Positions 5,712-35,136 of a stretch of DNA of 41,127 nucleotides are shown piece by piece. Both the position numbers and the translations under genes were made by a program. Positions within the stretch are counted from its first letter, which is position 1. Every line of letters starts with the position of its first letter. A model generated the notes under the pieces. That model was given only the letters and a program-made list of their open reading frames with translations, was not told the origin of the DNA and searched no databases. Source of the DNA: an uncultured Solirubrobacteraceae bacterium (lineage in GTDB: Bacteria > Actinomycetota > Thermoleophilia > Solirubrobacterales > Solirubrobacteraceae); contig CADCVR010000084.1 of NCBI GenBank assembly GCA_902806205.1, forward strand, positions 1 through 41,127, read 5' to 3'.

Positions 5712-5811
5712 CGCGGCGGGACTCTACGCGGCTCCTCCGCCCGGACGCCCGGAGCGCCAGCACCCTGGACGCCTGACCCGAAGCTGGCGCGCGGGCGGGG
5801 GGCGAAGCTCC

Positions 5812-5858
5812 CGGCGTGCGCCCTATCGAACCTGATGGGTGCAATCGAGCGCACGCCG
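5812..5858 (-). repeat. 47-bp palindromic repeat, copy A
   Basis: One of four copies of a 47-bp imperfect palindrome in this window. Each arm is about 17 bases, beginning CGGCGTGCGC here, around a 13-base asymmetric centre that gives the element an orientation. This copy and the one at 6726 share one orientation; those at 10287 and 32765 have the other (called plus). The ATG of the AbiEi/DUF559 gene at 5835 lies inside this copy, in its central part. Confidence 0.8.
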
Positions 5859-6740
5859 CGTGACGTCGAGCTTCTCGGCCTCGCCAACCGCCAGCACGGG
5901 GTCCTCCGCGCCGCGCAACTCGCGGAGCACGGACTGACCCGCAGGATGATCGCCCAGCGCACCCGAAGCGGACGCTTGACGCGCCTGCACCACGGCGTCT
6001 TCACGTGGGGGCACAGCGCGCTGACCCGCGAGGGCCGGTGGCTCGCCGCGCTGTGGGCGTGCGGCGCCGGCGCCGTGCTCTCGCACACGACAGCGGCCGC
6101 GTGTCACCGCATCGGCGGCGAGCACGGGACAGACGTGCACGTCTCGACCACCCGGCGGTCGGTCCACTCGCGGGACGGCATCGTGGTCCACCGCGTGAGC
6201 AGTCTGCATCGCGCCGACGTCCAGCGGACTCGGGGGCTGTGGGTGACGCGGATCCCACGGACCGTCGTGGACCTCGCCGACGCGACGGGCTGGGCGGAGG
6301 TCCGCGGCGCCGTCGACGCGCTGCGGTGGTTCTCCCCCGCCGAGCTGCGTGCAGCGCAGCGCCGGGCGCCCGGCCGGGCGGGGCGCGGGCTCGTCGTGCG
6401 CCTGCTCGAGGCCGACGAGGCGCACACGAAGTCCGAGCTCGAGCGCCGCTTCCTGCGGTTCGTCCGCCGCCACAGCCTGCCGCGGCCGACCGGGTTGAAC
6501 GTCCAGGTCGCCGGCTTCAAGGCGGACTGCTGCTACGCCGCGGAGCGCCTCGTCGTCGAGCTCGACGGCCGCGCGTACCACCAGCGGCGCCGGCAGATGG
6601 AGGCCGACCGGCTGCGCGACGAGGGCTACCAGCTCGCGGGCCACCGCATCCAGCGCTTCCTGTGGGACGACTTCCACGCGGCCCAGGAGGCGCGCACGGC
6701 CGAACGCCTGGTGAAGATGCTCGGCCGGCGTGTGCCCTGA
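5835..6740 (+). CDS. AbiEi-like wHTH / DUF559 (Vsr-like) nuclease-fold protein
   Basis: A 301-residue protein of two parts. The N-terminal region (about 1-90) resembles the AbiEi antitoxin winged-helix domain of type IV toxin-antitoxin systems (NRQHGVLRAAQLAEHGLTRR, then GRLTRLHHGVFTWG). The C-terminal region is DUF559, a Vsr/PD-(D/E)XK-related fold, with Asp231 in FKADCCY and Glu242 in VVELDGRAYH as likely metal residues. No partner toxin (AbiEii nucleotidyltransferase) is adjacent, so this is probably not a standard TA pair. Start (5835) and stop (6738-6740) both lie within copies of the 47-bp palindrome, in direct orientation. No clear ribosome binding site or -10 box was seen. Fold assignment is fairly sure; biological role is open. 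Confidence 0.8.
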   Translation: MGAIERTPRDVELLGLANRQHGVLRAAQLAEHGLTRRMIAQRTRSGRLTRLHHGVFTWGHSALTREGRWLAALWACGAGAVLSHTTAAACHRIGGEHGTDVHVSTTRRSVHSRDGIVVHRVSSLHRADVQRTRGLWVTRIPRTVVDLADATGWAEVRGAVDALRWFSPAELRAAQRRAPGRAGRGLVVRLLEADEAHTKSELERRFLRFVRRHSLPRPTGLNVQVAGFKADCCYAAERLVVELDGRAYHQRRRQMEADRLRDEGYQLAGHRIQRFLWDDFHAAQEARTAERLVKMLGRRVP

Positions 6741-6772
6741 TCGACCTCAGGGGTGGAACCGGGCACACGCCG
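6726..6772 (-). repeat. 47-bp palindromic repeat, copy B
   Basis: Second copy of the palindrome family, about 40 of 47 positions identical to the reverse complement of the copy at 10287. Its outer 12 bases pair perfectly (CGGCGTGTGCCC with GGGCACACGCCG). It covers the last 15 bases of the AbiEi/DUF559 gene including the stop, and is in the same orientation as the copy at that gene's start. Confidence 0.85.
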
Positions 6773-6801
6773 CCGGCGGCCGGCCGCCTAGGATCGCTCG
6801 C

Positions 6802-10228: not shown

Positions 10229-10264
10229 CGAGGCCGGGTCCCTTAGAAGAGGGGCCCGGCCTCG
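10229..10264. terminator. Strong bidirectional terminator hairpin
   Basis: A 14-pair stem (10229-10242 with 10251-10264, one G-U pair) around an eight-base loop TTAGAAGA, 37 bases after the secreted-protein stop. It lies between convergent genes and can serve zwf as well. Confidence 0.75.
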
Positions 10265-10286: not shown

Positions 10287-10333
10287 CGGCGTGTGCTCTG
10301 ATCCACCCAGGAGGTCGATCGGAGCACACGCCG
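10287..10333 (+). repeat. 47-bp palindromic repeat, copy C
   Basis: The best-formed copy: the left arm CGGCGTGTGCTCTGATC pairs with its reverse complement at 16 of 17 positions around a 13-base centre. It lies between the terminator and the zwf stop, in non-coding sequence, in the opposite orientation to the two copies bracketing the DUF559 gene. Confidence 0.85.
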
Positions 10334-20083: not shown

Positions 20084-21532
20084 GTGTACCCCCCCGGGAC
20101 CCGCATCACGATCGGCCGCGCCCTCGCCGGGGCGTTCCTCGCCGGCGGCTGGGACGAGGACGCGCTGACCCGGCGCGGAGCGGGCGTGTTCGCACCCCCG
20201 CCGCCGCCGTGGCTGCCCTCGGTCGTCCGCGCCGTCCTGCGCGTGCACCACCGCCCGCCGCTCGACGCGCCGCGCGAGCTCGCCGAGCTCATCGCCGGCA
20301 CGCTCGAGCAACTGCGGCCCGTGTCCGCTCCGGTGCCACGCGTCGTCCGGCAGCGCGTGTTCACGCCGGCGATGGGACGCCGGCGCTTCGGGGTGCCCGA
20401 GCTGGCGAGTCCGGCGGACCTCGCGGCCCTGCTCGGTGTCTCGAGCGGAACGCTCGCGTGGCTGGCCGACGTGCGCTCGCTGGAGCGGCGCGCCGGCGAC
20501 GAGCGGCTGCGCAACTACCGCTACACCTGGATCACGCGGACGAGCGCGGCGCCGGCCGCAGGGCGGACACCGTCGCGCGTGCGCGTGATCGAGCGGCCGA
20601 AGGCGCGGCTCAAGGCGGCGCAGCGCTGCCTCCTCCGCGAGGTGCTCATGGGCATCCCGGCGCATCCCGCGGCGCACGGCTTCGTCCCGGGCCGGTCGGC
20701 CACGACCCACGCCGCGCTGCACGCGGGGCGTCGCATCGTGCTGCGCTTCGACGTCGAGGACTTCTTCGCGGCGGTCACCGCGGGCCGCGTGTGGGCGGTC
20801 TTCCGCGCCGTGGGCTACCCCGAGGCCGTCGCCCACGCGCTGACGGGCCTGTGCACCAACGTCGTACCCGGGCACGAGTGGGCCGCCGTCCCCCGCGTGT
20901 CCGTCGACGGACCACCCGCTCTCCCCGGCGCTCGGCAGGAACCCTCCGGGACGGACGGGCGGTCCCCGGCCCGCGCGGCCACGCTCGCGGCGATCAACGC
21001 GCACCATCGTCTCGGCCGGCGGCTGGCCACGCCGCATCTGCCCCAGGGCGCGCCGACCTCCCCGGCCCTCGCCAACCTCGTCGCCCACCGGCTGGACCGG
21101 CGCCTGGCGGGCCTCGCGCGGAGCATCGGCGCAACGTACTCGCGCTACGCCGACGACCTCGTGCTCTCGGGTGACCGCGAACTCCAACGGCGCGTGGCCG
21201 CCACCCGCGCGGCAGTCGCGACGATCGTCACCGACGAAGGCTTCGTCCTGCACCCGGACAAGTCACAGCTCATGCACCGCGCGGGCCGCCAGCGCGTCTG
21301 CGGCATGGTCGTCAACGTGTCGCCCAACCTCGCCCGGGACGAGTTCGACCGCCTCCGCGCCGTACTCCACGACGCCGCGATCCACAGCCCCGAGCACGCC
21401 AACCGCGCGGGGCTGCCGAACTTCCGCGCGCACCTCACGGGCCGCGTCGCCTGGGCGGCATCGCTCAACCCGGCGCGCGGTGCGCGGCTGCGGGCGCAGC
21501 TCGCGGCGATCGACTGGGACCTTGCGGGCTGA
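20084..21532 (+). CDS. Retron-type reverse transcriptase
   Basis: A 482-residue RNA-dependent DNA polymerase. Palm motifs are clear: FDVEDFF (about 222-228), LPQGAPTSPALANL (319 onward) and SRYADDLVLSG with YADD at 355-358; HGFVPGRSATTHA is the typical retron fingers motif. The Y-region signature usually read as VTG is VCG (405-407) in RQRVCGMVVN. The N-terminal about 150 residues hold a helix-turn-helix-like part (LASPADLAALLGVSSGTLAWL) as in myxobacterial and actinobacterial single-gene retrons. A stop codon two codons upstream fixes GTG 20084 as the earliest start. No HNH maturase domain (group II intron) or spike-like DGR feature is present. No obvious effector gene adjoins it. Confidence 0.88.
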   Translation: MYPPGTRITIGRALAGAFLAGGWDEDALTRRGAGVFAPPPPPWLPSVVRAVLRVHHRPPLDAPRELAELIAGTLEQLRPVSAPVPRVVRQRVFTPAMGRRRFGVPELASPADLAALLGVSSGTLAWLADVRSLERRAGDERLRNYRYTWITRTSAAPAAGRTPSRVRVIERPKARLKAAQRCLLREVLMGIPAHPAAHGFVPGRSATTHAALHAGRRIVLRFDVEDFFAAVTAGRVWAVFRAVGYPEAVAHALTGLCTNVVPGHEWAAVPRVSVDGPPALPGARQEPSGTDGRSPARAATLAAINAHHRLGRRLATPHLPQGAPTSPALANLVAHRLDRRLAGLARSIGATYSRYADDLVLSGDRELQRRVAATRAAVATIVTDEGFVLHPDKSQLMHRAGRQRVCGMVVNVSPNLARDEFDRLRAVLHDAAIHSPEHANRAGLPNFRAHLTGRVAWAASLNPARGARLRAQLAAIDWDLAG

Positions 21533-32764: not shown

Positions 32765-32811
32765 CGGCGTGAGCTGCAATCCACCCATGACGTGGAGCGG
32801 GGCACACACGG
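32765..32811 (+). repeat. 47-bp palindromic repeat, copy D (degenerate)
   Basis: Fourth copy of the palindrome family, 36 of 47 positions identical to the copy at 10287 in the same orientation, including the central ATCCACCCA. Its arms pair less well than in the other copies. It lies 18 bases after the yjbQ stop in non-coding DNA. Confidence 0.7.
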
Positions 32812-33880: not shown

Positions 33881-34377
33881 TGGCCGACAAGCCGGTCACC
33901 GTCGCGGTGCCGGAGGAGCGCGTGCCGGAGTTCTACGTCTGGTTCGCGCACTTCTTGAGCGCGGCGCCCGGCGCCGAGCCGTCGATGCCCGGGCCGGGGC
34001 CGTGGCGTGGCGGCGGGCGCGGGCGCGGCGGCCCGGGTCGCTGGGCCCACGTCGAGGTGGAACCCTGGACTTCCGACGACGCGGACACCGCTCGCTGGCT
34101 GTACGCAAAGCTCGCGGACCCCGCCCGGGAGCTCCTCGACCTCCTGCTCGACGAGCCGGCGAAGCGGTGGTCGGGCAACGCGCTGGCCGAGCGACTGGGC
34201 CTGGAGAAGGGCGCCCACGGCGTCGCAGGCATCCTGGCCTGGCCCGGGCGCTACTGCCGCAAGCTCGGTCGGCCGCTGCCCATCGCGACCGCCAAGCGTG
34301 ACGACGGCGGCACGGACTACTGGGTCGAGGCCGCCCCGGCCGCGCTCTTCGCCGCCGCCCGCGCCACCTCCGCCTAG
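33880..34377 (+). CDS. DUF6416-like protein with winged-helix-type C-terminus
   Basis: A 165-residue protein with the shared N-terminal motif VTVAVPEERVPEFYVWF, a Gly/Arg-rich spacer (about 45-60), and a C-terminal domain (about 70-160). The last contains ARELLDLLLDEPAKRWSG, LAERLGLEKG and VAGILAWPGRYCRKLGRP, which looks like a winged helix. It resembles actinobacterial DUF6416 proteins; I am moderately sure. It is coupled to the preceding short paralog (TAGTG overlap) and shares the TACTT operator. Its stop overlaps the convergent nucS stop by four bases. Confidence 0.7.
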   Translation: MADKPVTVAVPEERVPEFYVWFAHFLSAAPGAEPSMPGPGPWRGGGRGRGGPGRWAHVEVEPWTSDDADTARWLYAKLADPARELLDLLLDEPAKRWSGNALAERLGLEKGAHGVAGILAWPGRYCRKLGRPLPIATAKRDDGGTDYWVEAAPAALFAAARATSA

Positions 34378-35048
34378 GCGAAGAGGGTCAGCTCGGGTTC
34401 GCGGTCCCCGCGCACGACGTCGAGGTCGACTTCGACGCAGGCGATTCCGCGCGCCTCGGCGAGCACCCGCGCCTGCGGCTTGATCACCTGCGCGGCGAGC
34501 ACGCCGGCGCAGAACTCCATCGCCGGATCTCGGCGAATGCGCTCGAGATAGCGGGTGAGCTGCTCGACGGCGTCGATCGTCGCCACGCGCTTGATCTCGA
34601 CCGCGGTCCAGCCGTCCTGGTGGTCGCGGCACATCAGGTCGACCGGCCCGATGTCCGTCGGCCATTCGCGGCGCACGAGGCGAAAGCCCTCGCCGCACCA
34701 CGCCGGCGCGGCGGCCAGCGCCTCCTGGAGGTCGCGTTCGACGCCGTCCTTCTCGAGCGCCGCGGCCTCGCCCATGTCGTGGGTGACGTCGGAGAGCACC
34801 TCCACGATGCCGATCTCGAGGCGGTCCTCAGTGACCCCGGCGAGCTTGCGCACGACGATCTGGCCGTCGCCCTCCTCGATCACCGTCGGCGGGGTCATCC
34901 AGTTCTGCGGCTTGACCGACGAGCCGCCGTCGTGCCAGACCGCAACGCCGCCATCCGCCTTGATCATCAGCAGCCTCACCGCCTCGGGAAGGTGGGTGGT
35001 CAGGCGGCCGGTGTAGTCGATGGAGCAGCGGGCCACGATCAAGCGCAT
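34374..35048 (-). CDS. nucS: Mismatch-specific endonuclease NucS/EndoMS
   Basis: A 224-residue nuclease that cuts double strands at mismatches and provides mismatch repair in Actinomycetota lacking MutS/MutL. The N-terminal MRLIVARCSIDYTGRL domain binds DNA; the C-terminal RecB-like domain has GPVDLMCRD and AVEIKR, the Asp and Glu-x-Lys of the active site. The C-terminus ends ELTLFA, a likely beta-clamp-binding tail. TAGATT (35064 to 35059, minus strand) lies ten bases before the ATG. An in-frame ATG four codons upstream (35060) is less likely. Confidence 0.93.
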   Translation of the reverse strand: MRLIVARCSIDYTGRLTTHLPEAVRLLMIKADGGVAVWHDGGSSVKPQNWMTPPTVIEEGDGQIVVRKLAGVTEDRLEIGIVEVLSDVTHDMGEAAALEKDGVERDLQEALAAAPAWCGEGFRLVRREWPTDIGPVDLMCRDHQDGWTAVEIKRVATIDAVEQLTRYLERIRRDPAMEFCAGVLAAQVIKPQARVLAEARGIACVEVDLDVVRGDREPELTLFA

Positions 35049-35136
35049 AGCACCGGCCAATCTAGAAGCCGGGCCGGACGTCCTGCTGCGCTTCGAGCAC
35101 GACCCCGTTCCCCGGCGTTCGGCTCCGACGAACTCG

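Follow-up and report, generated by a model that had tools for sequence, protein, structure and literature searches.

Genes encoding an AbiEi domain joined to a DUF559 nuclease are often bracketed, across Actinomycetota, by directly repeated copies of a palindrome that is specific to the gene, and further copies scattered through a genome match AbiEi-DUF559 genes of that same genome. We propose, with a probability of roughly 0.6, that such a gene and its two palindromes are one unit of a selfish partnership like that of REP repeats and RAYT, built on an unrelated enzyme. The partnership between gene and palindrome is well supported; the mechanism of its mobility is inferred.

A palindrome at each end of the gene

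The window, as we call the whole stretch of 41,127 nt that was analysed, comes from an uncultured Solirubrobacteraceae bacterium and has a GC content of 72.7%. Sequence reading and a hairpin scan identify near-perfect palindromes of 47 bp at 5812-5858 (CGGCGTGCGCCCTATCGAACCTGATGGGTGCAATCGAGCGCACGCCG) and 6726-6772. An AbiEi-DUF559 gene of 301 aa (5835-6740, + strand) runs from one to the other, as the first-pass annotation had stated: its ATG (5835-5837), which is the start used in the closest homologs too, lies at the centre of the 5' palindrome, and its TGA (6738-6740) lies within the 3' palindrome. Homologs begin at the same residue. The two palindromes, to which no strand is assigned, align as direct repeats with a local score of 50, compared with 41 at the 99.9th percentile of mismatched pairs. 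They had also been described as having the same orientation, which means little because each copy is nearly its own reverse complement.

In a search with a covariance model built from 17 copies, the window palindrome was found at about 20 places in its own genome (G000; 3.38 Mb, 97% complete), the better copies having model-based E values of about 1e-13 to 5e-20. In nearly all cases the copy lies 6-50 nt beyond a stop codon. The 5' bracket scores 56 bits (E 6.8e-14) and the 3' bracket 70.6 bits (E 1.1e-18). By Rfam it matches no known RNA family. Two dispersed copies, likewise without strand, fall in the window. One (10287-10333) is a solo copy that lies 19 nt past the stop of a G6PD gene, between convergent genes, and the other (32765-32811) is degenerate and lies 17 nt past a stop codon (49.5 bits, E 1.1e-11).

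The window contains other features of note. A strong GC hairpin (CGAGGCCGGGTCCC...GGGCCCGGCCTCG) at 10229-10264, between convergent genes and just before the palindrome at 10287, is probably a separate terminator. A reverse transcriptase gene (RVT_1; nearest PADLOC models RT_other, 7.5e-158, and RT_outgroup, 3.7e-149) occupies 20084-21532 on the + strand, and a NucS/EndoMS-type endonuclease gene occupies 34377-35060 on the - strand.

Brackets recur across Actinomycetota

The start window of each gene was aligned to its stop window, and a score of at least 34 was taken as a matching pair. Matching start and stop repeats are present in 94 of 196 AbiEi-DUF559 genes of Actinomycetota and in 0 of 257 neighbour genes at the same loci, so the cassette-like layout suspected from the window alone does recur in relatives. 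Within the order-level set 19 of 66 genes reach this score, which only 0.26% of mismatched pairs attain; the order-level and phylum-wide samples together yield 40 bracketed genes out of 116, where mismatched pairs predict 0.19 of 116. Mycobacterial genes from named records are bracketed in 54 of 80 cases, and here the expectation from mismatched pairs is as high as 8.4 of 80 because palindrome families are shared. The gene sets include paralogs and orthologs and are not independent samples, hence the counts give scale and not exact probabilities. In about half of the genes sampled no bracket pair could be detected, either because their brackets have decayed or because the rule is not universal.

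Strong palindromes at the mycobacterial loci number 62 at starts, 44 at stops and 20 in the other 437 kb, corresponding to about 5 per kb at starts and stops versus 0.046 per kb elsewhere. Of 111 genes of the wider set, 24 have their start codon within the 5' palindrome, the clade of the window gene included. In mycobacteria the 5' copy as a rule stops about 15 nt short of the start and encloses the start codon in 1 of 78 genes, and the 3' copy contains the stop codon in 48 of 78. Same-genus relatives have palindromes of different sequence at equivalent gene positions.

Stem-loops are common in GC-rich genomes (3.5-7.9% of 140-nt windows in the background), and ordinary terminator hairpins, or REP repeats independent of the gene, might stand beside it by chance. 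This reading is already contradicted: neighbours lack the brackets that nearly half of the genes possess, start and stop copies agree gene by gene, and cognate copies occur in the same genome. We give it virtually no weight.

Private palindromes and their scattered copies

In the own genome the ATG lies inside a palindrome in all four AbiEi-DUF559 genes (4/4), and these palindromes form three sequence families: GGCGTGTG at the window gene, GGGGGCTTGG at the C80 and C76 genes and GCGTGGGG at the C70 gene. At the C80 and C70 genes a matching palindrome, half or whole, also follows the stop. Solo copies of the GGGGGCTTGG type are found on C106, C17 and C67. The count of scattered cognate copies for the L046/L044 family is 3. 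The solo copy on C106 (L316, 1840-1930) retains the start of the DUF559 coding sequence over about 20 nt, together with upstream DNA similar to that of the C76 gene, and the nuclease gene is absent there; judged from these traces, it is a probable deletion remnant.

The three own paralogs lie on contigs without the window palindrome, and the palindromes are scattered, so that at first the grounds on which the first-pass annotation would have given up its proposal seemed to be met. The view that the palindromes have no tie to DUF559 genes was nevertheless rejected because every gene has a private palindrome sequence. The co-occurrence for which it had proposed a test is found, with paralogs bracketed by palindromes of their own sequence and scattered copies matching genes of their own genome.

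Counts in other genomes fit this pattern. The same-genus genome G002 contains about 14 or more copies of the window palindrome, in a species-specific version; the covariance model finds a few copies in G007, and G001, G003, G005 and G006 have none. Within the genus the copy number runs from about 20 down to 0. The complete G007 genome carries the palindrome of its loci L083 and L069 at about 40 places, and no L083 palindromes of note were found in G000 and G002. An unselected sample of 400 kb of G007, taken in even steps, was searched for strong palindromes irrespective of sequence, and those recovered matched the brackets of several different G007 DUF559 genes. Scattered copies were found for 8 of 15 own brackets (five genes) versus 11 of 288 foreign brackets, several of these 11 matches being low-complexity or partial. 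These counts show scattered palindromes that match AbiEi-DUF559 genes of the same genome.

Solo copies in G000 and G007 lie mostly 5-50 nt from the nearest gene 3' end, past stop codons. Twenty are in convergent gaps, 11 in co-directional and 4 in divergent ones, and 2 are in called genes, compared with 29 convergent, 62 co-directional and 31 divergent background gaps at the same loci (genes called by a simple codon-position score, without curated annotation). Three unrelated places in G002 contain tandem palindrome pairs (L030 63-181, L033 1729-1847 and L038 107-225), the two starts being exactly 72 nt apart in each; these resemble REPIN/BIME pairs and hint at a larger two-hairpin unit. One intergenic site is occupied by a palindrome in both G002 (L031 752-798) and G000 (L011 5029-5075), and the arms in each are typical of their own genome.

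Palindromes at start and stop would by themselves also be compatible with autorepression and termination. The main remaining rival to our proposal holds that the 5' palindrome mediates autorepression via AbiEi, that the 3' palindrome is a terminator, that the nuclease acts elsewhere, and that the scattered copies serve the same protein as additional sites of binding or termination, with a regulatory (regulon) or structural role. AbiEi and Rv2827c do autoregulate by binding inverted repeats in promoters (PMC7319586), the mycobacterial 5' copy ends ahead of the ribosome-binding region, and the position of most scattered copies just past stop codons suits termination. However, promoter placement is rare, with only 4 of 35 classed scattered sites divergent, which makes a classic regulon a poor fit; a terminator does not require 20-40 places to share one gene-specific sequence of 45 bp; copy number varies within the genus, as noted above; and the conservation of the nuclease residues described below is not explained. 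We regard this alternative as unlikely, yet whether the palindromes are operator and terminator or belong to something that moves is not decided.

Concerted change of the two ends

In 56 copies drawn from three genomes, standard pairs make up 81.6% of cells, versus 36-46% in slid versions. Changes on both sides occur in 16 of 23 pairs, and columns 9/39, 10/38, 17/31 and 18/30 switch together between species families. Within genomes, arm covariation beyond the shared consensus is weak, and in G007 it is even below that of shuffles; what seems to be kept is therefore the shared dyad sequence and not pairing alone. Where different mycobacterial species carry a gene at the same locus, the palindromes differ between species, and the two ends of one gene agree. 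The mean start-stop score is 60.6 for the own pair versus 28.4 to orthologues, and the own pair is the best in 24 of 41 genes. Both brackets of a gene evolve together between species.

An AbiEi fold joined to a Vsr-type nuclease

Pfam places AbiEi_4 (2.7e-10) and DUF559 (2.1e-5, over its cut-off) on the window protein, with MTES_1575 REase (9.8e-7) under its cut-off, and PADLOC assigns it to AbiEi (2.2e-24). A structure model made from an alignment of 50 relatives has a pLDDT of 93. Residues 8-195 (5856-6419, + strand) are modelled as winged-helix DNA-binding and antitoxicity domains that superpose on 6y8q (Z 11.5, rmsd 4.6, 181 residues). Residues 198-301 (6426-6737, + strand) best resemble the catalytic domain of I-Bth0305I (3r3p; Z 12.7, rmsd 2.8, 96 residues) and then Vsr (1cw0; Z 10.9), and a sequence profile matches 3r3p at 3e-4. 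According to the model, the window protein is a complete AbiEi fold fused to a nuclease of the Vsr/I-Bth0305I (EDxHD) type. D231 and E242 are invariant in 50 proteins and E203, D244, H249 and D258 nearly so, from which we infer that the nuclease is probably active.

The AbiEi part has the whole two-domain fold of the AbiE type IV toxin-antitoxin proteins AbiEi and Rv2827c (6y8q, 1zel) and, like them, inverted repeats near its own start. It differs in the fused nuclease, the second palindrome at the stop and the scattered copies. Neither an AbiEii nucleotidyltransferase toxin nor another partner was found beside the gene with Pfam or PADLOC; the neighbours are an MBL-fold gene and a gene for a 143-aa protein, the latter without a match in either. 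The window gene is thus not a standard AbiE pair. The C-terminal fold and its conserved acidic and His residues are those of I-Bth0305I/EDxHD homing endonucleases and Vsr; unlike the former, the nuclease has no intron or intein host, is joined to AbiEi and is bracketed by palindromes. To our knowledge, DUF559 (PF04480) merely names a domain, whose role has yet to be tested. The C-terminal domain passes the curated threshold of that family, whose description does not include a palindrome partnership.

AbiEi and Vsr-type domains are found in phage-defence proteins, and beside the AbiEi models there are weak matches to ProA, Hhe and PDC-S37. The protein could accordingly be an anti-invader or addiction nuclease that cuts DNA, its own palindromes marking self, sequestering the protein or reporting a state. 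We consider this improbable: no partner was found beside the window gene, one mycobacterial member has no homolog among 50,697 phage records, hardly any homologs were found on plasmids, and the concerted change of the two ends would remain unexplained. The window protein as query gave no match against plasmids or against a collection of genome contigs.

Filled and vacant sites

The site flanked by the MBL-fold gene and the gene for the 143-aa protein (5712-6801, + strand) is variable, and among the compared genomes named here only G000 has the DUF559 cassette. G001 has only 77 bp between the two genes, and G002 and G005 have in place of the unit a gene (L014, L013) that we take to be a fusion of NTF2-like and metallo-beta-lactamase domains. 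Likewise, a unit in G026 (L062) sits between two genes, presumably mazG-like and eno-like, that in G000 (L009) are adjacent to each other, and L198 lacks the L119 unit. Comparison of empty and filled sites, as had been suggested, thus does reveal differences between species. Mycobacterial genes keep the same locus between species, indicating that the gene itself seldom moves. We saw neither a transposition event nor a target-site duplication or an exact junction, the empty sites coming from species so distant that sequence divergence hides the junctions, and no exact empty site of a scattered copy was found, as orthologous flanks could not be aligned up to the palindrome.

Discussion

One kind of enzyme is known as a partner of REP-like repeats, and a large class of them, the CGTC REPs, is said to lack a dedicated transposase (PMC3733652). 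Our units resemble the REP/REPIN and RAYT (TnpA_REP) "REPtrons" (PMC3116915, PMC3733652, PMC8266576) in many respects. Both have many dispersed, short intergenic palindromes near gene 3' ends, with tandem pairs in places, copies of the same palindrome on either side of a chromosomal cognate gene, several families in a genome, every one with a gene of its own, and positions mostly stable between species. The REPtron enzyme is a Y1 HUH tyrosine transposase, whereas here it is AbiEi with a Vsr-type nuclease; the palindromes here are about 45-55 bp, nearly fully symmetric and without the GTAG foot; and the start codon is in or just after the 5' copy and the stop in the 3' copy. Inspection by eye of the flanks of 42 copies found no constant GTAG or CGTC. 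Since both the enzyme and the foot tetranucleotide (GTAG/CGTC) fail, we do not class the unit as RAYT, although it is REPtron-like. A RAYT origin was rejected, there being no Y1_Tnp (PF01797) match at E 0.001 in the own genome, 97% complete. The arrangement looks like an undescribed gene-plus-repeat selfish element. The first-pass annotation knew of no precedent, and we found none in the open literature; preprints and most subscription papers were outside the search, and a prior description elsewhere is not excluded.

How might a selfish gene-palindrome unit of this kind work? The AbiEi part would bind the dyad of its cognate palindrome, and the 5' copy, which covers the start codon or directly precedes it, would cause autorepression as an operator or a 5' hairpin. 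We think this step highly probable by analogy with AbiEi biology (PMC7319586), there being no binding data. The 3' copy would end the transcript. The nuclease may cut at or beside the palindrome, or at vacant sites, and repair or copying after the cut could add or convert palindrome copies; cleavage is itself inferred. For such nuclease-driven gain or conversion, which rests on the nuclease fold and on the patchy, genome-specific copies, we put the odds at about even. Solo copies would be non-autonomous offspring or deletion remnants, retained where they are least harmful.

On a broader level, we tentatively suggest, at slightly worse than even odds, a second, independent route to REP-like repeats, in which AbiEi-Vsr nucleases each recognise a private palindrome, have a copy at either end of their gene, with translation beginning within the copy or directly after it, and spread or convert copies through homing-like repair driven by the nuclease. 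If true, this route would explain many palindromic repeats that so far lack an explanation in Actinomycetota, among them those of mycobacteria, and a second, unrelated partner would mean that units of palindrome and nuclease have originated more than once. The partnership would give DUF559/AbiEi genes, of which one genome of the phylum can hold a dozen, a testable role, and would supply many protein and 45-bp target pairs whose recognition code could be read from sequence.
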